A stretch of DNA of 64,000 bases from Persicaria tinctoria. Taxonomy: Eukaryota; Streptophyta; Magnoliopsida; Caryophyllales; Polygonaceae. The position numbers and the translations under genes are program-made. Positions 2,130 to 64,000 of this stretch are shown one piece after another; within the stretch, counting starts at the first letter, position 1, and every line of letters starts with the position of its first letter. The notes beneath the pieces were generated by a model. It saw only the letters and a list, made by a program, of their open reading frames with translations, was not told the DNA's origin and did not search any database. The DNA is taken from NCBI GenBank assembly GCA_037127255.1, contig JBANSL010000012.1, positions 22,268,615 through 22,332,614 of the forward strand. Reading direction: 5' to 3'.

Positions 2130-4164
2130 TGTTGTGAGCCTAATCTGCCATGTTTTACAGTAACTTTTATATCGATTTCTGTATACATTTCATACATTTG
2201 GGCTAAGATAGTACAGAACCTATGTAGTTTATGTTTATTTGCCAAATTATGGAATCTACACCAGTTTCTGTTTAATTCGCAGAAATCGAGGCATTTTACA
2301 GCAATTCTACAGAAAGTCGGAAAAGCTCGGAAAACAACTACAGAAGTCCAAGGTCAAAGGAGCAGCGAAATACAGAACCAAGCTGACAGACAGGGTAACT
2401 CGATCTCGAGTTAACCCTGGTCGACATCGACAAGGCTTGGCCGAGCAACATGGTCGAGCAAACCTGCTCGATAAGCCAGATCACCCCGAGCTCCGGAGTC
2501 TACTCGATCTCGACAAGCCCTGGTCGAGATCGACGAAGCCCAGTGCCACCACTCGGAGTCGATGAAGAGAGAAGCTGCCCGAGAAGCCGAGGACGACCAG
2601 GCAGCACTCGCTGCCAGCGGATGAGGCAACTCGCGGGAGCGGAAAGGCAGACAACCCAACTCGACCTCGAGGACCCTTTGTCGAGGTCAACGAGAGCCTG
2701 AAGTCCAGATCCGAGCCAGGCCGACGAGATTCACCCGAGGAAGCCTAGTCGATGACCCAACCCTACTCGAGGTCGACTAAGGCCACTCGAGGTCGACGAG
2801 CACCAGTGAGCCAAGTCCGAGCCACATCGAGCAGAAGTAAGCCAAGCCGAGGAGCCGTACTCGAGGTCGACTAGACCTACTCGAGGTCAAGTAAGACCGT
2901 GTCCAGAAGCTTCTCGACTTGTGTTGTCTGAGTAGAATTGACGTTGCTTGGTCACGAAGGCGGAAGATTCTATCCGATTTGATCAAGTTCTATCCATGGA
3001 GGGAAATCTATCAAGACATGAAGACCTACCTTATTTAGTTTTATCTTTTCCATTCAAGATTTATTTCCATAAAACATTTTATTTATCATTAAGCACTTTA
3101 GATAGAAATTTAGATAAAGATAGATATCTTCTTTCCTAGAATAGCTAGGGAATGAAGACTATAAATAAAGCCCTAGGGGCTCAGTTTTAAGCATCCAATT
3201 CTGAAGTTAGAAAGTAGTTCCACAGAGACAGTTTAGGAGTTTGAGGTTTTTAGGGTTTTGGCAGTTTGCGAAAGTTGATTGCCGGAATTGTAAAGGCTTT
3301 GAATTTAGTTAATGCAAGTTATTTCTTTCAATCAATGATGTCCGAGTCTGCAATGAGGCGCGAGTAGTCAACCCACTTCTAGGGTTGGGGCGAGCCCGAC
3401 GATCGACTTGCGTGTCTGAGGTAAAAGATCCAACCTTTATCATGTTTTGAGCATTTTCCTACTTGTTGATGTGTTTATTGCCCATCTAATGGAGATCCAT
3501 GCTAACAACTTGGATTATAAACATAAAATCAGTAGAGACAATTAGGGTTTCTTGAGAGAGTTGTCTAATTGTTGGAAAAGGCGAAAGCTTAATCCTTTAA
3601 TGCGAATTATATGATTATCTGTTTGATTCTATCTTATGCATGCTTGGTTATTATCGTTGCAAACCCCAATCTTGGAAGTCTTTTACATTCAGTTTAAGTT
3701 AAAAACCCCAAAAAGCATTTGTTTTTACTTTTCTTTATTTTTGTTCGTTTTCGTTCCCTGCTCTACTCGATCTCGACCACCCCTGGTTGACCTCGAGCTG
3801 CTGATCCTCGACCCAGAGTCATTGTTGCTTAAGTGTGCAGGACATCGACCAGACCAACTCGACCCAGACGAGCCGTACTCGATCTCGAGTAAGGCTAGTC
3901 GATATCGACCACCCCTTGTCGACCTGTACTGCTGTGTTCGACTGTTTGAGCTTCTGTCGAGTTGCTGTACTCGAGCTCGAGCACCTGTTGTCGACTTCTG
4001 TTCGTGAGATTACTCTGCTGCCTAGGTTCCGCTGACACGCTTCCTCGTGGATCGATCCTGACTTCCCACTGCTACATCAGGAGGAGGTCTTGTATTTATT
4101 TTGCGTGGGCTTGAATCTGGTTTGATATATTGCTATATTTTGAACTCGATTTCCTCCTATAACA
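2130..4164 (+). mobile_element. Family T LTR 'A' (3' LTR of T0)
   Basis: The LTR starts TGTTGTGAGCC and ends CCTCCTATAACA, giving the TGTTG...CAACA terminal inverted repeat of the family with one change at the 3' end. A TATA box (TATAAATA) lies at 3160-3167. Paired TCGA palindromes crowd 2396-2920 and 3760-4000. The 3' third is of 'type I', shared with LTR E at 24590-26664 and unlike LTRs B, D, F and G. It is followed directly by reversed chromovirus pol instead of host DNA, so no target duplication can be read. Confidence 0.8.
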
Positions 4165-6851
4165 GGCATAAGCTTATCTTTGACTTTAATGCAATCTATG
4201 CATCTCTTAAGGCAATGTTCTACATCCCTAAGCATATGTGGCCAATAAAAGTGTGATTTTAGTGTGTTACATGTCTTATCTCTACCAAAATGTCCCATTA
4301 ATCCACCACTATGGGCTTCACTAACAAGTAATAATCGCAGAGAACATCTAGGAATGCACACTTGATCTTTTCGAAATAAGAATCCATCATGTATATAGAA
4401 GCCATCGAAAGGACCCGATTCTAAGCATTTTCGAAAAGTGTTACCAAAATCTAGATCAGCCTCATACAATTCCTTTATGTAAACAAAGTCTAAGACTCTA
4501 GAATCCAAAGTGGTTAAAAGAACATGTCTTCTAGCTAGCACATGAGACTCGAAATCAGCTCCTAAAACATGCCTCCTAGATAATGCATCAGCAACCACAT
4601 TGTCTTTGCCTTTCTTATACTTAATTACATAAGGAAATGTCTCAATAAACTCCATCCATCTACCATGTCTCCTATCAAGTTTATCTTGACTTTTAAAGTG
4701 TTTTAATGACTCATGATCAGTCTTAAGAATAAACTCGCTAGGCCATAGATAGTGAGACCATGTCTTAAGTACTCTAAACAAAGCATACAATTCCTTATCA
4801 TAGGTAGAGTAATTAAGACAAGCACCTTTCAACTTCTCATAAAAGAAAGCAATAGGCTTACCTCCCTGCATAAGGACTCCACCAATTCCAACTTCGCTAG
4901 CATCACACTCTACTTCAAAGGGCTGGGAGAAGTCGGGGAGAGCTAGAAGTGGCGCATGGGTTAGCTTATCCTTAAGTGTGTGGAAAGCTTCCTCTTGAGT
5001 TGGTCCCCATGTGAACTCGCTCCTCTTCTTTGTAAGCTCAATTAGTGGGGCTGAGATGGTGCTGAAGTCTCGCACAACGCGCCGGTAGAAACTAGCAAGT
5101 CCTTGGAAGCTACGCACATGGCCGATGTTGGTGGGTGTTGGCCACTTTTGGATGGCTTTGATCTTCGCCTCATCGACACGCAGTCCACTTGAACTTACTA
5201 CAAAACCAAGAAAAGACACTTGTTCATTACATAATTCACATTTCTTTAAATTAGCATAGAAGTGTTCAATTCTCAGCGTTTTAAGTACTTCTTTAAGATG
5301 TAATTCATGCTCATTAAGAGATTTGCTATAAATTAGAATATCATCAAAATAAACAACAACAAATCTTCCTATGAAGTGTCTAAGAACATGATTCATTAAT
5401 CTCATAAAAGTACTTGGTGCATTAGTTAAACCAAAAGGCATAACTAACCACTCATATAAACCTTGCTTAGTCTTAAAGGCTGTTTTCCATTCATCACCCT
5501 CTTTCATTCTAATTTGAAGATAGGCACTCCTAAGATCTATTTTAGAGAATATAGAAGCTCCATGCAGCTCATCTAGCATATCATCTAATCTAGGAATAGG
5601 ATGATGATATTTAATAGTAATGTTGTTAATAGCCCTACAATCTACACACATTCTCCATGAACCATCTTTCTTAGGGACTAATAACACAGGCACAACACTA
5701 GGACTTAAGCTTACTCGAATATAACCCTTATCCAACAGTTCCTGGACTTGGGTTTGGACCTCTTGGGTCTTAGTGGGATTCATACAATACGCATGCCTAT
5801 TAGGTAATGCAGCCCCTGGAATAAGATCAATTTGATGCTCAATTCCACAAATAGGGGGTAGACCTGGTGGTATGTCATTGGGAAACACATCTTTATACTC
5901 CTCAAGTAAAGCGAGTATGTTTGATGGAAGAGAAGCTTTAAGCTCTTCACTCAACATATTCAAGCTTTTGATAAGTTGCATAAGGGTAGTTTCTCCATCC
6001 GCAAATTCGTCTAAGTATGTACTCTTGGAAGCCATTAGTGTACCTTTAGGCCGAGTTTGAGGATCCGCTTGGCTCGCCTGAGCCGCCTTATCTAACTCAC
6101 CTTTACTTACCTTGCGCTTCTCAATCTCATCAACCACTTGTGTAGGCGTCATAGGCTTGAGAACGACGTTCTTTCCCTGAAATGTAAAGGCATAGCGGTT
6201 AGAATGACCATCATGTTGGACCTTACGATCAAATTGCCAAGGACGACCTAATAGAATATGACAAGCTAGCATAGGCACAATATCACATAAAACATCATCT
6301 TCATAATGTCCTAGTTTAATATGTACTTTAACTTGCTTGTTTACTTTTAAATTTCCACAATCATTCATCCAATGCAATTTATAAAGTCTGGGATGTTGGA
6401 CAGTAGATAGATGCAATTTGTCAACCATTTCTTGACTAGCTAAATTAAAGCAACTACCTCCATCAATGATCACATGAACAACCTTTCCTTTAACTAGACA
6501 ACGAGTATGAAACAAGTTTTCTCTTTGATTATCATCACAAGGTGCAGGAACAACACTTAAAACTCTCCTAACAATCAAAGATTCACCATGCTCATATTCG
6601 ACCTCATCATCATCATCATAGCACATAAGGTTGAGATTTTGATCATTATCTTCATTAGCATGCTCATCATGTTCATCACAAGAATTTTCAGATTCATATT
6701 CGCCTAAGTGATTAACCATGAGAGTTTTCTTATTAGGGCAATCCTTCATATAATGTTCTCTACCTTGGCATTTAAAGCATACAATATCTCTAGATCTAAG
6801 GGTAGAAGAGTTAGGATTACTCCCTTTGGGACCAGTAGATGTCCCAGACGA
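4165..6851 (-). pseudogene. Chromovirus-type Ty3/gypsy pol fragment (protease, RT, RNase H, integrase zinc domain)
   Basis: The frame is open through to the left junction with LTR A, after about residue 862. Counting residue 1 as the Met just after the CCHC histidine (6747-6749): protease active site D-G-G-S at 96 with flap ILLGRPW at 165-171; reverse transcriptase about 290-475 with YFDD at 467-470; RNase H with D616, E653, D678 and D721; integrase zinc motif with H813, H820, C850 and C853. A CCHC knuckle ([14 protein letters not shown]) lies just upstream at about 6735-6776. The integrase catalytic core, chromodomain and own LTRs are absent. The DGGS protease and the RT sequence suggest the CRM/Reina side of the chromoviruses, though the exact clade is uncertain. 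It lies antisense between two family T LTRs and could not move by itself. Confidence 0.85.
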
Positions 6852-31353: not shown

Positions 31354-34300
31354 TCAAGGTGGCATTTGCAGGGCCCATGTAGCCTGGGCCTCAAATAGGA
31401 CTCCATTCTTGTCCTTTAGCTGGATCCCTCCTGAATGGATCTTGTTCACAGTGAATGGTCCCATTTTCTTCTTATTGAATTTGTTAGGAAACCAATGATC
31501 CTTTGATTTAGAGACATAGACCATGTCTCCTACTTCGTATTCCTTTGGATCGTCATCGGTAATCCTGCATAAGCGCACATACCAAGGCAAACCTCTCCCA
31601 TGTATAGATAAATCATTGATTGAAATAGGAGAAGAAAGATTCATACCTTGGCTTACCTTCGCGGAATCAGATTCGGGAACCACTGGATCTTGTCGATCTC
31701 GAGTAACATTACTCGACATCGATGAAGTTGGCTCATCTGGTGGACTACAAGTAGAGGAAGGAGAAGTCGAGGAGACCAAGATCTTGTCGACATCGACAAG
31801 AGTTGTCGACGTCGAGGAATTCTCCTTGTCTGGTGGGATGCAGGTCGAGGAAGGAGGTATCGAGGAAACCCGGATCTTGTCGATATCGACAAGAGTTGTC
31901 GATGTCGAGTAGTTTTCAACCTCCAGTGGATTCCTTGTCGAAGACGGCAGTGTCGAGGAAGCCTTAATCTTGTCGACATCGACAAGTGTTGTCGATGTCG
32001 AGTTGTTCTCTGGTTCCAATAGCTTGCTCGACGAGGCCGGCGGTGGTTTCTGACCTTTGTCGATGTCGATTAAACTACTCGATCTCAAGAAGTTTTTGTC
32101 GACTTCGACCCCATACTTAGATCCTTTGTTCTCCTTGAGAATTGCCATGATCTCCTCCACCTGGGCCTCCATGTCTCTCTTTTCCCCGCAGGTGATGTAG
32201 CCAGCTGAGATAGATTTGACCTCTTCCATGGGACCCGTATGCTGTTCAGTTTTGTTGAAGGAATACTCAATCACCTCATCGCTGATGTTGAAAGTGAGCA
32301 CTCCCTTCCGTACGCTTATATTGGCATCCACCGTTGCCAAGAATGGTCTCCCTAAAATAATTGGACAAGCAGGGTCTTCTTGCATATCAATAATTAGGAA
32401 ATCAGCAGGAACGAAGAATTTACCTACTTGTACTGGGACATTCTCCACCATGCCTGTTGGAATGACCACCGTGTTGTTGGCCATATATAGTCTAGCATCC
32501 ACAGGCTCTAATGCACCTATCTTAATCTTGGACCAAATCGTTAAAGGCATAATACTAACACTAGCTCCAAGATCACATAGGGCATTAATTTTGTATGGAC
32601 CAAATCCAATAGTTATAGCAAACTTACCTGGATCCAGCCTCTTCTCCAATATGTCCAGATGGCTGCACTCCTCTGTAATTTCTGCCATCGATCGCTTTTT
32701 GCTCAGAATCTCCTTCAGGAACTTGACGTAGGAAGGCATTTCATTGAGAGCTTCTGTGAAGGGTATGGTGACATTCAGCTTCTGAAGCATCTTGATGAAG
32801 CGCTGAAACTTTTTCTCCGCAGGGTCCTTAAGAGATTTCGTGGGGAAAGGCAATTTCTTTTTCTGATCAGGCGCCAGAACAGACGTCGGAGGCTTTGCAG
32901 ACTTCTCGACATCGATTTGAGACTTCTCGACATCGACAAGTTCCTCGACATCGACAACTTTCCTCGATGTCGAATTGCTGTTCAGTGCAGAAGTTGGTCG
33001 ATCAGGGATGTCCTCGACATCGAGAAGTTTTTTGTCGATGTCGACAAGATTTTTGTCGACATCGAGTTGTTCTTCAGTGCTGTCCTGCTGCTTTTCGTCC
33101 TCTGGCTCGCTTAGTTGATGCCCGCTCCTAAGCTTTACAGCAGCAACATGTCCATTCTTTCCCTTAGGATTTGGTTCTGTTTGCCCAGGGAGTTTGCCGG
33201 ACTGTCGTGGTATCTGTGCAGAAAGCTGGCCTATCTGAGTCTCAATCCCCTTTTTCCAGATGTCCAGTTCTCCAAATTTGGTGGTGATGTTCTGGAACTG
33301 GTTGTTGATGGTGCCCTGATTTCGTCGCATCTCCTCAAGAATCAGCTGCAGATCATCCTTCTTTTGATCCCTTTCTGAATGCCCCGGAGCTCTGTAGGGC
33401 GGAGGATTCCTAGGGGGGCCTTGGTTCCATTGCTGTTGATAAGGCCTTTGATCCCCCATATAGCGATTCGGCCCTCCTGCGTAAGCTGCCTCCTCATGAT
33501 GTTCTGCCATCCTGACTTGCTCTGTGTGTGGGCACTCAGTAGTGGTGTGCCTTTGCGATCCGCATTCTATGCAAGGCTGGTTGACAGAGAGATATTTCAC
33601 TTGTTTGAGGAGCTTCTTATTCTGGTCTCTGTAGTATTGCTCCCTGACATCTGGGTCAATCTCCTTTGGTGGCTCATAAAGTGGCATAGATGGTGCTGGC
33701 CTGCTGTAGGAGTTCTCATCATAGTTTGAAGTCGCCCCGTATTTGTTATCATAGTTGGTGAGCTTGTCCAGCACACCCCAGGCGTCAATTGGTGGCATCG
33801 TCAGGAACTCATAGCGAGTGTAATGGTTGATTCTGTCCTTAGTGCCTTGATCAAGAGAGTTGAAGAAGATCTCTTGAATGACGTAGGGCGGTTGTCCATG
33901 AGTAGGGCAAGATCGCAGAAGTTCCTTGTAGCGCTCCCATGCCTTTGCCAGTGGTTCCCCGTGCTTTTGTTTGAAGGCGGTGATTTTCTGGCGGAGATGT
34001 GCTGTTTTGGCAGGAGGGAAGAATTTGTTCAGGAACTCTTGCTCTACTTGGGCCCATGTGGTGAGTGATCTTGGTTTCAGCCCTTCCAGCCATTTCAGTG
34101 CAGGTCCAGCGAGAGACCAGCGAAAAGCTTTCATCTTGACATATTCCAGCGTGGTACCTTCAGCAAGAGTACGACACATATCAGAAAAGTTGGTAATATG
34201 TTCAAGAGGACACTCATTAAATCTGCCATAAAAGGCATTATTTTTAAGTTCTATAAGAAACTGAGTGCGAATTTCGAAAGAGTTATTAGGGATAAGAATC

Positions 34301-34599
34301 GCCGATTCAGGCACGACGAGCGGGGGATGCATATAATCCTCAGCAGTGGTTGGAATTTGGGCAAGCACAGCTTCCGCTTGCCTGGCACGTTCAGCTTCTT
34401 GTTCCCTGGCTGCTCTCTCAGCGGCGAGAGCAGCGTTGTGAGCAGCATCCTTATCGGTTAGTTCCCTTGTAAGCCTCTGTATTAGCTGCTCCTGTGTTTC
34501 AGCAGCCGCCATGGCTCTTAGTAGTCTAGTTCGGACGTGTAGAAGGCGCTCTGGTTCGTCTAAGCCGTCAAACTCAGGTCGTTGACCAGAACGGCGCAT
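31354..34599 (-). CDS. gag-protease polyprotein of T3, 1081 residues, open
   Basis: ATG at 34599-34597 is shared by T1 and T2. Order of parts: N-terminal segment; retrotransposon gag core (about residues 110-300); CCHC knuckle (343-356); coiled-coil-like linker; first TCGA-encoded segment (about 510-568); Athila-type aspartic protease with D-L-G-A-S at D676 and ILGRPF downstream; second TCGA-encoded segment (about 830-970) with repeated STSTTLVDVDK-like units; C-terminal module with MGPF (G1047) resembling the integrase GPY/F domain. Known Athila pol carries RT, RNase H and integrase between protease and GPY/F. Here that interval is replaced by the TCGA segment. The product would make particle protein and process it, but could not reverse transcribe or integrate. 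Confidence 0.85.
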   Translation of the reverse strand: MRRSGQRPEFDGLDEPERLLHVRTRLLRAMAAAETQEQLIQRLTRELTDKDAAHNAALAAERAAREQEAERARQAEAVLAQIPTTAEDYMHPPLVVPESAILIPNNSFEIRTQFLIELKNNAFYGRFNECPLEHITNFSDMCRTLAEGTTLEYVKMKAFRWSLAGPALKWLEGLKPRSLTTWAQVEQEFLNKFFPPAKTAHLRQKITAFKQKHGEPLAKAWERYKELLRSCPTHGQPPYVIQEIFFNSLDQGTKDRINHYTRYEFLTMPPIDAWGVLDKLTNYDNKYGATSNYDENSYSRPAPSMPLYEPPKEIDPDVREQYYRDQNKKLLKQVKYLSVNQPCIECGSQRHTTTECPHTEQVRMAEHHEEAAYAGGPNRYMGDQRPYQQQWNQGPPRNPPPYRAPGHSERDQKKDDLQLILEEMRRNQGTINNQFQNITTKFGELDIWKKGIETQIGQLSAQIPRQSGKLPGQTEPNPKGKNGHVAAVKLRSGHQLSEPEDEKQQDSTEEQLDVDKNLVDIDKKLLDVEDIPDRPTSALNSNSTSRKVVDVEELVDVEKSQIDVEKSAKPPTSVLAPDQKKKLPFPTKSLKDPAEKKFQRFIKMLQKLNVTIPFTEALNEMPSYVKFLKEILSKKRSMAEITEECSHLDILEKRLDPGKFAITIGFGPYKINALCDLGASVSIMPLTIWSKIKIGALEPVDARLYMANNTVVIPTGMVENVPVQVGKFFVPADFLIIDMQEDPACPIILGRPFLATVDANISVRKGVLTFNISDEVIEYSFNKTEQHTGPMEEVKSISAGYITCGEKRDMEAQVEEIMAILKENKGSKYGVEVDKNFLRSSSLIDIDKGQKPPPASSSKLLEPENNSTSTTLVDVDKIKASSTLPSSTRNPLEVENYSTSTTLVDIDKIRVSSIPPSSTCIPPDKENSSTSTTLVDVDKILVSSTSPSSTCSPPDEPTSSMSSNVTRDRQDPVVPESDSAKVSQGMNLSSPISINDLSIHGRGLPWYVRLCRITDDDPKEYEVGDMVYVSKSKDHWFPNKFNKKKMGPFTVNKIHSGGIQLKDKNGVLFEAQATWALQMPP

Positions 34600-37340: not shown

Positions 37341-37816
37341 TGTTATAATATTATTATATTGGAATGAATAAACACTAGAAATCGGTCCCTTGGAACCCCA
37401 ATAACACATCAGTTCATTCTCTTTTTCTCTTCTCTACTCTCTTTATTATCACACGTTATCAGCACGACTTGCTTGAAAGAGAGGATCGGCCGGTATACTA
37501 ATTGACCGAGGTGCAATATGCGATATGCATATGAATTACATTGCACATGTATGCAGTGACTTCCTACTGTCTTCGATCATTTTTTTCTTCTTATATTTCG
37601 TCACTATGTACGTTTACTTTTATTTTTACATACGTACCCTCTATCTCACATATATATATATATTATAAAATCCCCCGAAGCGGATAAAGTAACCTCAATA
37701 TCTGAAGTGATTGAATCAATCGAAGTTGTAGTATCCATTAAGTGAATATACAGTAATTTCAACCATAAAGTGTTGAATTAATCAAATTTTTCATATCTAA
37801 TTACTCAAACTTAATT
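37341..37816 (+). mobile_element. Decayed short-LTR element with hairpins (copy H1)
   Basis: 37341-37453 matches the LTR at 61295-61436 (start TGTTATAATATTATTATATT, end TTATTATCACA), lacking the segment that holds the TATA box. The shared primer-like CGTTATCAGCACGA follows. Downstream are inverted repeats with 8-nt loops: ATCC/GGAT (loop CCCGAAGC, 37674-37681), TCAATA/GATTGA with one mismatch (loop TCTGAAGT, 37701-37708), TTCAAC/GTTGAA (loop CATAAAGT, 37764-37771) and AATTA/TAATT (loop CTCAAACT, 37804-37811). It is a degraded relative of the array at the right edge. No coding frame. Confidence 0.65.
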
Positions 37817-38299
37817 TCATTTGAAAACTCACTGAATGGAATAGGACCACCTCGAGTTGGTGGATTTCATCAAATGTAAACCATTCAACTAAACTTCACA
37901 ACGATTTAAAATCTATTTACTTTTTTATTTACAAAAATATATTCTATCATTTGAAAAAAATATTGAATTGTCTACTTTTCTTTTTTTTTGAGAAAAAATT
38001 GTCTACTTTTCACACGCTTTTTTTTTTTGATTCAAATTTCACACGCTTTTTAATGATAATAAAATTATATACTCCGTAAAATATTAATTTTTTTAATAAT
38101 TTCATATTTAGTAGTAATAAGTTTAAATTTATTTTTAAAGTTTTAATATTTTATATAATTTTTTATCTAATCTTTTAATGTACAGTAAAATAATATATTT
38201 AGAAGTATATGTTATTATTATGAGATCAACCCTTTAACTAAAGAGTAGGTATGTGTGGATACGGAAACCAACAAGAAACGTGGGCGATTGAATATGATT
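37817..38299. other. AT-rich intergenic DNA
   Basis: No gene recognised. CCACC/GGTGG around TCGAGTT at about 37847-37863 may be a further hairpin of copy H1. Confidence 0.4.
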
Positions 38300-44306: not shown

Positions 44307-44456
44307 GGTTATATACACCACAAATCACAAGGCTGAAAATGCACGTCCTTAAGGACGTGCAAGCCTTGTGACTACTTAACTTTTTAAAAAAATTAATTAA
44401 CCCTTTTTAACCATGCACGTCCTTAAGAACGTGCATGATTTGAGGTGTATATAGCC
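44307..44456. mobile_element. MITE with ACGT-CCTTAAGG palindromes, copy 1
   Basis: The ends GGTTATATACACCACAAATC (44307-44326) and GATTTGAGGTGTATATAGCC (44437-44456) are inverted repeats with two mismatches. Inside are a perfect 22-bp palindrome centred on CCTTAAGG (44340-44361) and a second with one mismatch (44414-44435). No coding capacity. A second copy is at 50086-50235. Confidence 0.8.
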
Positions 44457-56773: not shown

Positions 56774-57136
56774 ATTTGTGATAGATTACATATGTCTTAT
56801 TATTGTATAGTGGACCAAAAGCTCATTAAGGCTCAATACCTTTGTAACCTATATATATGTTATATCAATGAATGGAAACCCTAAGGAGGACATTACAATC
56901 AACCTCATAATCTCACAAGGTATCACAGCCTAAGATCCAAAGACCCTAAATTTCTTTTTTTCTCTAACCCTAGCCGCCACCTCTCTCTCTCCTTGCCGCT
57001 CCTCGCCCCCCCCCCTCACCTCGCCACCTCTCTCTCTCTTTGCCGCTCCTCGCCGCCACCCTTCCCATCCCGCCGTCGGCCTCCCCGTCCCTTGCCGCCG
57101 CACCCTCCCTCCTCTCTCTCTATCCTTCCCGCCACC

Positions 57137-60100
57137 ATGTCCATCGAAACCACCGAAACCACCGCCACCAAATCACCCTTCCATTCCGCCCTAACCATCT
57201 CCAACATCAAAAATTGCATCCCTATCATTCTTGATCATGAATCCAGTACCTACACCATGTGGTCGCACCTCTTCACGACCCATGTTAAGGCTCATAAAGT
57301 TCTCCACCACATTGACTCCTCCGCCAACCGCCCTGAAAGCGAAGACGACGATCTCTTCGCTCAACTTGACACCATTGTCCTTCAATGGATCTTCAACACC
57401 ATCTCAAAAGATCTATTGACCACCATCCTTGACCCCAAAGACTCCGCCTTGAAAGCTTGGAAGAAACTTCAGGATATCTTTCAAGACAACAAGTCCACCC
57501 GTGCTGTCTATCTCGAGCACGAATTCTCAAGTTGCAAGCTTTCCTCTTTTCCGTCGATATCTGCCTACTTTCAGCACATCAAGACCCTGGCTGATCAGCT
57601 AGACGCCGTCAACTCCAAACCGAGCGCCACCCGTCTCGTCCTCCAGGTACTCTCGGGCCTCCCTTCTGAATACAATGCTGCTGCTACTCATATACAGCAG
57701 ACGGAACCTCTCCCTACATTCGAGAAGACCCGGTCTCAACTGATCTTGGAGGAGACTCGCCTTCACCGTCAGACAACCGACGCCGCCAAAGACAAGACGG
57801 CGTTGGTCTCATCCAGTGACATCATCAAGCAGCTTGCCCTCCAGCCCGGCTGCAGCAACGACCAGCAGGGACCAAGGGGCGGCGGCGGCCGCGGCAGGGG
57901 CAGCAATGGCCGCAACAATGGTCGCCCGCAGCACTACGATCCCCGCCACCCCTCTTGGTACCCCAACCCTAGCTACCCTCCTTGGATGCCCTATGGCTAC
58001 CCTGGTGCATCGTTTCGTGGACCAGCCCCATATCCCAACCGTCAGCAGGGCTTGTTGGGTCCTGCTCCCCGTCCGTCGTCCGATCAGGCATACCCGACTG
58101 ATGTGCACAACGCCTTCTCTTCCAAGAAGCTGACACCCCCTGACGGCGCTTGGTACATGGACACTGGCGCTACCTCTCATATGACAAACTTCTCAGGTAC
58201 TCTCTCATCTCTTTCTTTTAAGGGTCCTGCTCATTCTATTATCGTCGGCAACGGTGGTCGCCTTGCTACTTCGGGCATTGGCCACACCACACTACCAACC
58301 CCTACCAACCCTTTGCACCTCAACAATGTCCTTGTTGCCCCCAAACTTGTCAAAAACATTATCTCTGTCCGTCGGTTCACCACTGACAATAATGTTTCTC
58401 TTGTGTTTGATCCGTTTGGTTTCTCTGTGAAGGATCTTACTACGGGGGTTACTCGTCTGAGATGTAATAGCACCGGGGAGCTCTATCCTGTGTCGTCACC
58501 ATCACCATCCAGCCCGTCAAGTCCAGTCGCCCTCTCGGCATCATCATCCAGTCTTTGGCATGCACGCCTTGGTCATCCCAGTCCTGCAGTTTTAGATCTA
58601 CTTCGTTCTAAGAGTCTTGTCCAATGTAATAAAGAGCTTCGCTCTAGTTTATGTTCGTCTTGTCAGTTAGGCAAGCATGCCAGACTTCCTTTTCAGCGAT
58701 CTTTAAACACTACATTTGTACCTTTTGATATTATTCATAGTGATATTTGGACATCTCCTGTGCCTAGCAAGGAGGGTCATAAGTATTACCTTTTGTTTCT
58801 GGATGATTATACACATTTCTTATGGGTTTTCCCTGGGCACTTTAAATCTCAAGTGTTCCCTATCTTTGCCAAATTCCACGCTTACATCAAAACACAGTTT
58901 CACACCTCTGTCAAGTGTTTCCAATGCGACAATGGCCGAGAATTTGACAACAAAGATTTTCACACTTTCTTTAATACCAATGAGATATCCTATCGCTTGT
59001 CCTGCCCCTACACCTCTCAACAAAATGGCAAAGCCGAACGAATCATCCGAACCATTACCAATATGATGCGCACTCTTCTTTTCCACGCATCCATTCCCCT
59101 CCTTTATTGGCCTTACGCCTTGGCCACCACATGCTACCTCCTCAACATTCTCCCTTCCACCACCCTCAACCATCGCTCACCGTTTTAGGCACTGTATTGC
59201 ACTTTGCCCATATATGATCACCTTCGTACATTTGGTTGCCTGTGCTTCCCTAATCAGGCATCCACCTCCCCCCACAAGCTTCACCCTCGCTCTACCCCTT
59301 GTGTCTTTCTTGGCTACCCGTCTGATCATCGCGGTTACATTTGCCTCGATATCAAGACTCACAGGATCATTCTCTCTCGTCATGTCACCTTTGATGAGTC
59401 GCGATTTCCCTTCGCATCTCCCACACCTCCTGTGTCGTCGACAGAGTCTGAGTCACCATTCCCTCACTTCATTCTCCCCCAGAGCTCTCCCGGTGCTCCT
59501 GCGTCTCCCCCTCCCCCACCTCCCCCGCCACCATCTACCAACAGACCACACACCCGCAGCGTCTCCGGTGTCTTCAGACCCCGTCAGATCATCTCCATGA
59601 CCACCGACCACCACCCCGCTATCCACCTCCCTTCACCTCGACAATCACCCGCGCCTCGCCTACATGCGGCGGCCGCGGCATCGAATGCTGCGCCCGCCGC
59701 AACCCCATTTGCGGCGCCCGCAGCTACAAACTCGTCCCTGGCGGCGCCCGCCGCAACCCCATTTGCTGCACCCGCCGTGTCGACCACCTCCCTGGCGGCG
59801 CCCGCCGCAGGCTTTGCAGCGCCCGCCGCAAGTAGTGCTGCGCCCGCCGCCTCTGCACCCGCCGCTTCCTCCTCCCTGCACCTTGCGCCTGTTGCCCCAG
59901 CTCGGCACCACGATCACTCCTTCCTCTAAGCTTGACCTTGTTGCTTACACTGATGCGGATTGGGGTGGTTGTCCTGACACGCGTCGCTCCACGTCTGGTT
60001 ACTGTGTCTTCCTCAACGACACCCTTGTGTCGTGGTCGGCCAAGCATCAGTCTGTCGTGTCTCGCTCCAGCGCTGAGGCCGAATACAGGGGCGTTGCCAA

Positions 60101-60425
60101 CGTTGTCTCTGAGTGCTCTTGGCTCCGCAATCTCCTGCTTGAGCTCCGTTGCCCTCTTATGAAGGCCACTCTGGTCTACACTGATAACATCTCTGCAGTC
60201 TATCTGGCTAGCAACCCGGTCCAACATCAACGCATGAAGCACATTGAGCTTGATCTCCACTTCGTCAGGGACAAGGTTGCCATAGGACATGTCCGCATTC
60301 TACATGTCCCGTCCTCATATCAGTACGCTGATATATTCACCAAGGGTTTACCTAGACAGTTGTTCATTGATTTTCGCTCCAGTCTCACTGTACGAGCCCC
60401 TCCAGTTTCGACTGCGGGGGTTTGA
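57137..60425 (+). pseudogene. copia gag-pol, nonsense-mutated and lacking reverse transcriptase
   Basis: ATG 57137 sits in a good context (GCCACCATGT); the frame is open upstream to about 56993. Order: UBN2-type gag, Gly/Arg-rich linker without a CCHC knuckle, protease WYMDTGATSH (Asp codon 58160-58162), integrase zinc motif (HARLGHP...CSSCQLGKH), integrase core with HSDIW (near 58742), CDNGREF (Asp codon 58928-58930) and NGKAERI (Glu codon 59036-59038). TAG at 59186-59188 interrupts the frame, which then continues to 59929. RNase H (AYTDADWGG, near 59943) to the end at 60425 is one frame away. All RT motifs are absent, replaced by a proline/alanine-rich stretch. Confidence 0.9.
59665..59880 (+). 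repeat. GC-rich Ala-Pro repeat where RT should be
   Basis: Degenerate repeats of GGCGCCCGCCGCAACCCC type encode units such as AAPAATPFAAPAA. The block lies between the integrase-proximal linker and RNase H, marking the joint of the RT deletion. Its GC content is far above the flanking sequence. Confidence 0.75.
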
Positions 60426-60566
60426 TAGATTACATAGGTCTTATTATTGTATAGTGGGCAGAAAGCCCATTAAGGCCCAATACCTTTGTAACCTATATAT
60501 ATGTTATATCAATGAATGGAAACCCTAACGAGGACATTACAATCAATCTCATAATCTCACAATTTG

Positions 60567-61294
60567 TAGTCATCGTTTGATAAATCTGTCGAACTCGGAG
60601 AGGACGAGGTAAATAAGGGACCTCGGCAAATGATGTTGAGGGTACAAATGAGGCTCGGCAAAAGTTGTTGAGGGTATGAAGGAACCTCGGCAAAAAGTGG
60701 TGAGGGTACACAAGAGGCTCGGTGACAGTAGTCGAGCATATATCATCACCTCGTGAGATTTACATGAGCCTTTTGCCCGACAGTAAGCCATGAAAAAAGG
60801 TAAAAAAAAACAACTCCAATCGCAACAAAACGAGCAATTTCTTTCGTTTTCGTTACAATTGCTACTCATAGTTCAACTCAAACAACACCCAAATCAATAA
60901 CAATCAAACAGAACACACAAACAACAACCAATTTAATCAATTTCAATTCTAATTTCAAACCCTAAAACACACAATTTCTTGAAATAAAAACCATTAAAAT
61001 CAATTGTAAATAAAACTTCTTGCCTTAAATTTAATAGATTTGTTGAAAGCTCTCACAAATCTATCGCAATGAACAAGGTATGAGTGATTTATCTCTATCG
61101 TTTGTGTCCCGTTCAAGTGAAACGAGGTTGAATAGCGTTAGTTTTCAATTCTTCTCGCGGGCAGATTTGTAATTGTATTTTTAGAATGGGAAGGACTTGT
61201 GTGCAATTTTATGAAAATGGTCTTGTCAATAGCCCTTTTCCCATCTTGTATGAAGCCCTTATGATTGAATAATTATCACTTAGATATGATTTTC
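60567..61294. other. Intergenic DNA with a 32-bp minisatellite
   Basis: CTCGG starts repeat units at 60622, 60654, 60686 and 60718, an exact 32-bp period (unit core CTCGGCAAAAGTTGTTGAGG). The rest is AT-rich with no gene recognised. Confidence 0.65.
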
Positions 61295-61436
61295 TGTTAT
61301 AATATTATTATATTGTGATGGATAAACACTAGAAACCCTAGTTCCCGTGTAAACTCCTATATAAAGGGTCCCTTGGAACCCCAATAAGACATCAGTTCAT
61401 TCTCTTCTTCTCCTCTTTATTCTACATATTATCACA
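61295..61436 (+). mobile_element. LTR of short-LTR element H2
   Basis: TGTTATAATATTATTATATT to ATATTATCACA, about 142 bp with TATATAAA at 61358-61365. Most of it is shared with 37341-37453. It is followed by CGTTATCAGCACGAG (61437-61451), a variant of the TATCAGAGC-type copia primer site. The 3' LTR would lie beyond the window. Confidence 0.65.
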
Positions 61437-61451
61437 CGTTATCAGCACGAG

Positions 61452-62343
61452 ATGCTCTAAGAAATTAGGGAATTAGGGTTTTATGAAATTAGCCATACGT
61501 ATGAAGAGTATCAATTCCACCGTCACCATCTCTTTCCACCTTCCGGGGTCTCGTCCTGCGATCGTTGAAGCGCCCACTGCCACCGCTCCAAGCCTAGTGT
61601 TTCGCTAGGTTACACTTTCTCGGCAAGCTTTTTGGCTCATTCCCGAGCGGTGCCAAAACGCCAGCGGTGGCGCTGGTGTTGATGGCAGTGTTGCTCGTCT
61701 CTGACCCGATCTCCGATTGGGGCGCTTGGGGCTGCCGAATGGCGTTCGAATTCAGGAGGTCTGCAAATTCATGGCGGGCATGGTTGCTTTCTCTGCGCGT
61801 TCATTAAGGTTAGTGCGATAATCCCCAATCGAACGACGACCTCAAGGTTAGTTTTTACTACGACTCTCTTTAAATTAGAGAAGTCATCGGTCTTATTGCT
61901 CTATGGTAATCCTTTTGTTTGCTTGACTAAGTGAATTGAATGGTTATTTCTCCATGGCTGTTAATTTTTTTTTTTTAGTCTGATTCGAGCATGTCCTTCA
62001 TATAATAGATAATTACTCCTTTCATATAATTATTACGGAGTATTGGCTAGCCTAGCTATATATACTCACGATTAGAATCTATGTATCTATACCGTACAAT
62101 AAGTATAAGGTTAATTAGATTTGTATACAACTTGGGATTATTTATTTTAACCTTGGAGTGATAATCTTACCTATTTAAGAATATTGTGGGACTAAGTTAT
62201 ACGATTCTGTATATATATTTTCGTCGTACATATAATTTTGTACATGTTATGGTGGATTACATCTTCTTCTATAAATTATACATATATTTGTACATGTGAA
62301 TCTATATCTATATTTTTGATATTATAGATGAGTTACTGCATGA
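61452..62343 (+). other. Leader of element H2
   Basis: GC-richer for about 350 bp, then AT-rich. No gag or other coding frame follows the primer site, unlike a standard copia element. CCTTGGAGTG near 62151 may be the first, decayed, hairpin. Confidence 0.45.
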
Positions 62344-63993
62344 CTCGTCTCCCTAAATAGATGAGTGAACACATCTCCTGAAGTAGATGAACGATCGAGC
62401 ACGTCTTCCAAAATAGATGAACGAATAGATGAACGTACACATCTCCAGAAATAGATTAATGGTCACATCCCCTGGAGTGGATGAATTATAATTCCTAGAC
62501 AAGGGTCAACACATCCCCCGAAGTAGATGAATGGTCCATCTCCTGAAGTAGATGTGAACGATTGAAAATCATCCCCGTAGTGATGAATTTTTTTTAATTT
62601 TCAGTTTTATTATTCATTTCAATCTGTATTTTTTTTGTCTCCAGAAGTAGACAAACATTATCTCCCGAAGTAGATATAAATTGATAAATTTGCATATCAT
62701 CCCAAAAGTTATAGTTTATCTCCTGAAGTAGATAAAATAAACACAATTTATGCATCACATCTCTTGAAGAAGATGAAATTCTTATTTATCTCCTGAAAAA
62801 GATAAAATATTTTAGCTTATATATCATGAAAAAAAAAATTATCTCTCGTAGTAGATAAAATTTTAAAATTCATAATCATCACTGAACCGATGATTTTTAT
62901 AGCTAAACAAGCAAATTATGATTTCTCCACCAGTCTCCAGAAGTAGACGAACATGTAACATGTATTTGCAGATGTTCATTTTATTGTCACCAGAAGTTGA
63001 CAATATGCCAATTTGATTTGATTTATTTATGTTTATTTATAGTTTTATTACCTATATCAACTATTTATTTATTTATCATTATCTCTCGAAATAAATAAAC
63101 TCATCCCCTGAAGAGGATGAACACATTATGCTCATAAATCGTTCCTGTAGTAACAATAATAATCTCCTGAAGAGATATATGAAAAGAAAATTAATAAAAT
63201 GTCTCTCTCTCATAAACACAAATTTGTCCCTGAAGTGACAATATTCATTTCCTGAAGTAAATGAATGATAAGAGATATATTATATACCCTCCTAAAGATT
63301 ATTGAAAATCATACCCAGAAGTGTATGAGTTTTATTTTAAAGTTGCACCAATACTCAGAAGTGTATAAATTAAAGTGAATGTATACAAGTTGTCTTCTTC
63401 CTGAAGTGAGTAATAATCAAACATACCGTTTCTTGAAGAATATGGTCAATGTTTATATGACAACTTACTATATTTTTTAATGCAACTTATCATCTTTTGG
63501 AGTATATGATCGAAATATACATAATAGAGACTAATTGTCACTCGAAGTTGACAAATGAATCATCTTATTAATAAAATCATTTCCTGAAGAAAATGATAAA
63601 TTGACAAGTCTTTCTCATGGTTCCACCTGAAGTGGACAAATACAATTTTATTTTATTTATTTATTTTTCATTGCTTTATATTGAATAAAATTATTATGAT
63701 TTTACTTATTGTAATTCAAAGATCAAAGTGTTTCCCGAAGAAACTACTTATCATGAGTGTCTAATGCGGAGTTTTGTTTGGCAAATGAACATTTGGGAGA
63801 AAGGTTTACCACAATCCCGTAGATTGTGAAGTTTTTCAACACCAACCTAAGAGCCTGAAGACTCTACTGGTGTATTTTTATTAACTTCTGAAGAGTAAAT
63901 AATATTTTATGAACTCTAGAAGAGTAAAGGATTTCACAAACTCCAGAAGAGTATATGATCCTAATTTTATCATTTGTACTCATGAAGAAGTAC
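62344..63993 (+). repeat. Array of short hairpins with constant loop and differing complementary stems
   Basis: Repeated inverted repeats enclose an 8-nt (late in the array 7-nt) loop near CCTGAAGT. Loop positions and stems: 62377-62384 CATCT/AGATG; 62471-62478 CATCC/GGATG; 62641-62648 TTTGTCT/AGACAAA; 62722-62729 TTTATCT/AGATAAA; 62845-62852 TTATCT/AGATAA; 62881-62888 AATCATC/GATGATT; 62990-62997 TATTGTCA/TGACAATA; 63107-63114 TCATCC/GGATGA; 63229-63236 TTGTC/GACAA; 63251-63258 ATTCATTT/AAATGAAT; 63315-63322 TCATAC/GTATGA; 63541-63548 TTGTCA/TGACAA; 63583-63590 ATCATTT/AAATGAT; 63981-63988 TGTACT/AGTACA. Others are at 62351, 62407, 62445, 62517, 62542, 62574, 62664, 62763, 62792, 62937, 63144, 63355, 63432, 63496 and 63854. 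No coding frame spans the array. Function unknown. Confidence 0.9.
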
Positions 63994-64000
63994 ATGGAAT

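Follow-up and report, generated by a model that had tools for sequence, protein, structure and literature searches.

Why would a plant genome carry dozens of small hairpins that share one loop while their stems differ from unit to unit? The question arises from a stretch of 64,000 nucleotides of Persicaria tinctoria (C12:22268615-22332614, hereafter the window). A sequence-only reading of this DNA had described such an array at 62344-63993, and had proposed either selection on a folded nucleic acid or a copying process that makes each arm the complement of its partner, possibly within a non-autonomous retroelement. We located the array where this reading had put it, and found it to be larger than described.

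The element that houses the array

The array lies within an LTR retrotransposon that starts at window position 61295 and overruns the window end; the remainder was read on the genomic locus L015. It measures 5,349 bp from the 5' LTR to the end of the 3' LTR and has the features of its class: two LTRs with TG..CA ends, a TSD (TTTTC, flanking each side), a primer-binding site and a PPT (GGGGGAG, preceding the 3' LTR in L015). The 5' LTR (61295-61436, + strand; TGTTATAATA...TATTATCACA) includes a TATA-box-like TATATAAA (61358-61365, +) and is identical at 142 of 142 bp to the 3' LTR (L015:5317-5458, outside the window). The insertion is recent, and the element was mobile until very recently. The 5' LTR is followed by the primer-binding site CGTTATCAGCACGA (61437-61450, +) and by a leader without any unit of our hairpin model (61451-62342, +), in which AAGGTTAGT occurs twice, at 61806 and 61844, as a candidate splice donor. 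Then comes the array, with its constant loop CYNGAAG(T/A) and covarying stems (62343-64000, +), which continues beyond the window. Its placement behind an LTR and a primer site had been correctly recognized from the sequence.

The longest ORF of the whole element has 78 aa, lies on the − strand and is the only one of at least 70 aa when both strands are listed. There are 61 ATGs in 61395-64000, where the longest ATG-initiated frame spans 41 codons. We found no coding domain in the element, and its lineage is read from the primer site. Two short pieces from its 3' half gave no Pfam match, and a tblastn search with five copia protein pieces against 21 array loci (E ≤ 1e-3) returned none in L015 and a single match, in antisense, at L033:2-340. 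Residues resembling copia pol, seen by eye at about 4.4-5.1 kb of L015, were supported by neither Pfam nor tblastn and are given here as a mere remark. The suspicion that this is a non-autonomous LTR element is borne out, since nothing longer than this ORF stands between the identical LTRs.

A recent insertion without coding capacity implies mobilization in trans by an autonomous partner. We found no partner with gag and pol in the loci of this genome that we examined. In L019, copia PR, IN and RT pieces (L019:3129-6013) lie behind a hairpin array that breaks off at the junction. We rejected this locus as the autonomous partner, because the array ends at the join and a non-exhaustive search identified no gag. 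It may be a nested insertion or a chimera, with pol pieces that belong to a different element.

With its size above 4 kb and its non-coding interior, the element resembles LARDs (large retrotransposon derivatives), which are non-autonomous LTR elements according to the available text of PMC6696364; at 5.3 kb it exceeds the size of up to 4 kb given there for TRIMs, despite its short 142-bp LTRs. It differs from LARDs in a primer site of the Ty1/copia Bianca type. Kalendar et al. reportedly described, in 2004, a conserved RNA structure in the LARD interior; we know of no loop-conserved mini-hairpin array in these elements. The site CGTTATCAGCACGA, present in both copies of the window (see below), fits half a tRNA-Ile whose wobble base is inosine, the sequence matched being what we take to be the tRNA-Ile anticodon arm with inosine at position 34. 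Among the 40 array-hit loci, ten further ones have an exact TTATCAGCACGA and two have one-base variants. The available text of PMC6317226 ascribes a half-tRNA-Ile primer with A-to-I editing to Bianca, a Ty1/copia lineage, only. Our element resembles Bianca in the half-tRNA-Ile primer site with edited (inosine) anticodon and in the 5-bp TSD, but it has no coding domains, and the word "hairpin" is absent from the main text of that paper (PMC6317226). We class the element as a LARD-like non-autonomous LTR retrotransposon with a Bianca-type primer site, and as such it is of a known kind.

The window contains a second, older copy. An LTR of the same kind without the TATA-box stretch (37341-37453, +; 75% in blastn over 170 columns) is followed by a primer-binding site that aligns identically to the first (37454-37467, +) and by four decayed hairpin-like units (37666-37861, +; model matches at 37666, 37693 and 37756, and four score matches). 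The best model match outside the array within the 64 kb is in this copy (20.2 bits), and the next, at 17.7 bits, is in a four-copy GC-rich repeat. Four units were reached in 6 of 2,000 shuffles; given a real background of about 1.8 matches per kb, the excess at the older copy is modest (Poisson estimate of about 0.02).

Other repeats surround these copies. A different copia element (56779-60562), with 140-bp LTRs that are 94% identical and with gag, Pol_BBD and integrase domains, stops some 730 bp upstream of the hairpin element; a scan of IMG/VR for it found no relative. Between the two lies a tandem repeat with 32-bp spacing (60606-60733). Palindromes that read GCACGTCCTTAAGGACGTGC, or nearly so, recur at 44347, 44421, 50126, 50165 and 50200 and have no relation to the array. 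The region 1-36778 has many direct and inverted copies, an RT/RNase H ORF (4077-6749, −) and a Retrotrans_gag ORF (31354-34599, −), and probably consists of nested Ty3/gypsy-type elements. Beyond the hairpin element, − strand ORFs at L015:7450-9740 resemble, by eye only, a PIF1/Helitron-type helicase.

Hairpins in excess of chance

We counted 47 sense and 0 antisense hairpins in the element interior with a score-based method (score of at least 11). Sense hairpins are dense up to about 64 kb in window-equivalent coordinates and become sparser until about 66.1-66.3 kb. The array therefore runs past the end, at 63993, that the sequence-only reading had given. The core of the loop, which that reading gave as CCNGAAGW, is described better by CYNGAAG with a T or A after it, and loops of 5 or 7 nt fit some units best.

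In 62344-63993, there are 21 exact hairpins with a stem of at least 5 bp and an 8-nt loop, against 3.3 on average, and never more than 8, in 100 dinucleotide-shuffled sequences. Counts were also elevated for loops of 10 (13 hairpins) and 12 nt (8 hairpins), which we put down to the recounting of longer-stemmed hairpins with 8-nt loops. When each hairpin was counted once, 24 had the motif loop (mean of 2.0 and maximum of 8 in 200 shuffles) and 24 had other loops, the latter being at chance level (shuffle mean 28.1). Selection by the stem (at least 6 bp, loop of 3-14) gave 12 hairpins with the motif loop and 7 with other loops, for shuffle means of 0.7 and 8.2, respectively. Loop-like sites with at most one mismatch numbered 19 on the + strand and 0 on the − strand. 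When 32 sites were picked by the loop alone, their first five positions were paired in 123 of 160 cases, versus 67.5 with permuted arms (0 of 10,000 permutations as high). Stem complementarity thus stands above the dinucleotide-shuffled controls, and the claim of covariation survives the comparison.

Folding energy is a poor discriminator. The summed local folding energy of the array in sense (z = −2.35) is unremarkable beside two other window regions (−2.46 and −3.02), and the antisense strand of the array gives −5.13. Three single hairpins, folded as DNA on both strands, range from −2.9 to −6.1 kcal/mol. A search of 60400-64000 with the Rfam covariance models returned no match up to E = 1, and a ribozyme (retrozyme) reading was dropped by inspection alone. 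When contigs of IMG/VR and GTDB were scanned for the hairpin or the primer site, nothing came up except for two hairpin patterns, which matched 4 and 2 IMG/VR stretches; we read these as chance matches in phage-like DNA.

Covariation between units and families

We aligned 33 window units chosen by their loop only, discarding none for a missing stem. Their covariation score, 0.579, exceeds those of shuffles (0.212; 0 of 500 as high) and of slid registers (at most 0.225). Two-sided changes occur at all seven stem pairs, a count that averages 6.7 in shuffles. Identity among 32 units is at background in the flanks (0.29-0.30), 0.41 in the arms and 0.77 in the loop, the last value being raised by the loop-based choice. 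The 25 units with at least three pairs comprise 125 pairs: 113 Watson-Crick, 3 G.T and 2 A.C among them. Tandem sub-repeats are present where the array begins.

We then searched the source assembly (1.68 Gb). The 13-mer CCTGAAGTAGATG has 438 matches and its reversal 27, while a 20-mer spanning the LTR end and the primer site has 175 exact matches and its reversal 0. Among eight loci at 13-mer matches, six hold 11-40 one-strand hairpins per 3 kb, and L013 and L014 hold 4 and 2. We took 40 loci among the 100 matches listed (one per apparent copy, C1-C3, with L013 and L014 excluded): 33 carry at least 10 sense hairpins with 0-5 antisense, and 7 carry 2-6. Seven loci have two LTR matches (L015, L017, L025, L030, L034, L051 and L052, the first LTRs of L025 and L051 being incomplete in the sequence taken). 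Their bodies are of similar size (5,065-5,588 bp) and contain 47-60 sense and 0-1 antisense hairpins.

Eleven mutually related loci (L016, L020, L031, L032, L035, L036, L037, L043, L044, L045 and L054) form a family B, with no blastn match to the window array (1e-10) or to the window LTR (1e-8). In L020, L031, L032, L035 and L054, primer sites lie behind different LTR-like ends. The model trained on the window has 50 matches in these 11 loci (E ≤ 0.1), on a single strand per locus, of which 10 are the unit used to find the loci and many are duplicates of one another. Without the ascertained unit, arms of the 103 unique units of family B are paired at 244 of 515 positions, against 156.9 when permuted (maximum 190; z = 8.9); the antisense control gives 10 of 65 in 13 units. 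This 11-locus test supersedes a figure of z = 16.6 from a mixed set of 199 units, in which L028, L038, L049 and L053 partly match the window array. The newer value is the lower one and still lies far beyond its control. L028, L038 and L049 seem to form a third group. A fixed loop with covarying stems between units, as the sequence-only reading had it, is thus found both in the window (0.579 versus 0.212) and in this second family (244/515 versus 156.9).

The pattern CATNNCCNGAAGTNNATG, which leaves two stem pairs free, has 2,178 matches in the genome and its reversal 12. Among the 100 matches listed, all on C1 and many of them copies of one another, both free pairs are Watson-Crick in 85 by hand count, where independence of the arms predicts 33.0. 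These 85 comprise CT/AG (45), TT/AA (19), AC/GT (13) and CC/GG (8); the other 15 of the matches listed have G.U only (8), A.C (3) or other mismatches (4).

Tandem amplification is visible at two scales. At C1:79767936-79768057, five identical hairpins with TT/AA stems follow each other at an exact spacing of 26 bp, pointing to amplification of single units. At C3:10912498-10930032, matches of the hairpin 13-mer are 5,842-5,846 bp apart and those of the primer site recur every 5,846 bp (10914280, 10920126, 10925972), which suggests a tandem array of whole elements with common LTRs.

Selection on stems

We aligned 18 copies of the window's family (family A: the window and 17 further copies), excluding the reference row and the ascertained unit from the counts. 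Stems change at 0.52x the spacer rate after standardization by base (150 versus 286; 0 of 2,000 block resamples as low), and the ratio is 0.56 (L015) or 0.44 (L017) under other rules or references. Spacers diverge by about 11% among these copies. This constraint in the window's own family agrees with the proposal of selection on a folded nucleic acid. Loops change at 0.81x the spacer rate and are scarcely more conserved than spacers in recent copies, which counts against the reading that we favour below. Two-sided Watson-Crick changes occur in 6 of 2,263 cells, against 0.82 when permuted (maximum 5), each in one copy; one-sided changes broke the pair in 105 cases and gave G.U in 44. Hence, the compensatory change claimed from the sequence holds between units and is thin between orthologous hairpins. 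In family B, where only 6-8 hairpins satisfy the rule of the stem-rate test, the ratio is 0.61 with L035 as the reference (32/2,000) and 1.01 with L031 (1,107/2,000), and two-sided Watson-Crick changes number 0 versus 2.05 permuted with L035 and 15 versus 7.81 (maximum 15) with L031. Stem constraint is inconsistent in this family.

Wobble pairs bear on the level at which selection acts. Among units with one non-Watson-Crick pair, 52 have G.U and 21 have A.C (34 loci, unique 20-mers, which are non-independent). Reduced to distinct arm pairs (pairs 2-5), the counts are 28 and 16, a non-significant difference (p = 0.096), and in the family A alignment G.U and A.C are even (23 versus 23 events; 43 versus 33 cells). 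The sense-strand wobble evidence for action in RNA is no more than suggestive. Selection is likely to act at the RNA level, although the wobble test falls short of proof.

Possible functions of the array

The reading that we favour, with about even confidence, is that the interior of this LARD-like non-autonomous element serves as a multivalent RNA array that binds protein and probably acts in packaging. The array has the structure of a set of packaging signals, i.e. repeated stem-loops with a common loop and variable stems. Each stem in the transcript would display the CYNGAAG loop to a loop-reading protein. Many weak sites would cooperate: the Gag of an autonomous relative would capture the RNA and package it, and reverse transcription would then start from the tRNA-Ile half. 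The Gag of the partner is the likeliest reader because a non-autonomous element must get packaged; a host protein that binds RNA comes second. Because the loop lacks self-complementarity, kissing-loop dimerization through it is unlikely. More speculatively, if splicing did use the donor-like positions 61806 and 61844, the array would be intronic and confined to unspliced RNA, which it might mark as psi does in retroviruses.

Matched stems could also arise without selection, if template switching, in reverse transcription or in repair, rewrote the arms at short quasi-palindromes so that one became the complement of the other. Such copying would fit the nearly strict Watson-Crick pairing of window stems (113 of 125 pairs) and the clean tandem copies of some units (the 26-bp spacing on C1). 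Yet, in the same DNA, hairpins with a different loop are no more frequent than expected by chance (24 versus 28.1), which leaves the general arm-copying process offered by the sequence-only reading unsupported. The stems of family A also change more slowly than the spacers (0.52x), where rewriting should presumably speed them, and the fixed loop and the strand bias are left unexplained. We regard this origin as quite unlikely. An old satellite-like expansion of one hairpin, now drifting as a decayed repeat without current function, would account for the tandem sub-repeats at the beginning of the array and for the inconsistent constraint in family B. It is scarcely credible in view of arms that match while the spacers are at background identity (0.29-0.30), and of the constrained stems of family A.

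The remaining alternatives retain selection and change the place where it acts. A plant RNA-binding protein may attach to the hairpins in the nucleus or cytoplasm and export, stabilize or hide the RNA, or block ribosomes on the ATG-rich leader. Multivalent identical loops would suit a host protein equally well as Gag, and the 61 ATGs with short frames in 61395-64000 are in line with this role, which we nevertheless consider unlikely: hairpins are weak when taken singly (−2.9 to −6.1 kcal/mol as DNA, in three units on both strands) and we know of no specific host factor for such hairpins. Alternatively, the structure could act in DNA or in minus-strand cDNA, as cruciforms or as hairpins of single strands, with a role in, e.g., strand transfer, integration or recombination. 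The antisense strand does fold better than the sense strand (z of −5.13 versus −2.35), which counts against the reading that we favour, and there is no clear preference for G.U over A.C. However, pooled units lean towards G.U (52 versus 21; 28 versus 16 for distinct arms) and, to our knowledge, nothing requires about 50 hairpins in cDNA, making this role very improbable.

The packaging-array reading has parallels in known systems. The dispersed packaging signals of ssRNA viruses such as MS2 and STNV are stem-loops with a common loop motif. In these viruses, multiple RNA sites of varied affinity jointly recruit the coat protein, according to the available text of PMC3662417; repetition would give avidity in our element as is proposed there. 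The difference is that here the RNA is that of a retroelement, the array is in a non-coding interior and binding is predicted only. The Ty1 TIPIRT domain and retroviral psi/DIS have hairpins downstream of the 5' end that are proposed to serve dimerization and packaging, but there the hairpins are few and unique, are joined by a pseudoknot, and have mutually complementary loops (PMC5454406, available text), unlike the some 50 repeats with a non-self-complementary loop described here. BARE2 cannot make Gag, is parasitic on BARE1 and retains dimerization and packaging signals, while the main text of that source mentions no hairpin array and does not contain the word "hairpin" (PMC3735527). We regard Ty1 and BARE2 as the closest comparisons in function. 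We found no hairpin array in a plant retrotransposon in the open-licence literature searched. As far as this literature shows, an array as the main content of an element is undescribed.

A broader interpretation is possible, though we hold it only tentatively. The element may represent a class of plant retro-parasites whose genome is mainly some 50 interchangeable hairpins, each predicted to be a low-affinity dock for one loop-reading protein. Stems would drift while remaining paired, and the loop would be kept across families with different LTRs and spacers, so that the array, rather than its sequence, is inherited. This would be a multivalent packaging code new to retroelements.

How LTR elements select RNA for their particles is poorly understood, as stated in the available text of PMC5454406, and this gap is sharper for non-autonomous elements. 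The elements described here amount to a natural experiment: each has dozens of repeats, the genome holds many copies of them from more than a single family, and the stem-loop was kept while the spacers changed. CYNGAAG on a short stem is a ready motif for pull-downs and for a genome-wide covariation set. The array could offer a clean example, outside viruses, of multivalent RNA recognition through low-affinity sites.
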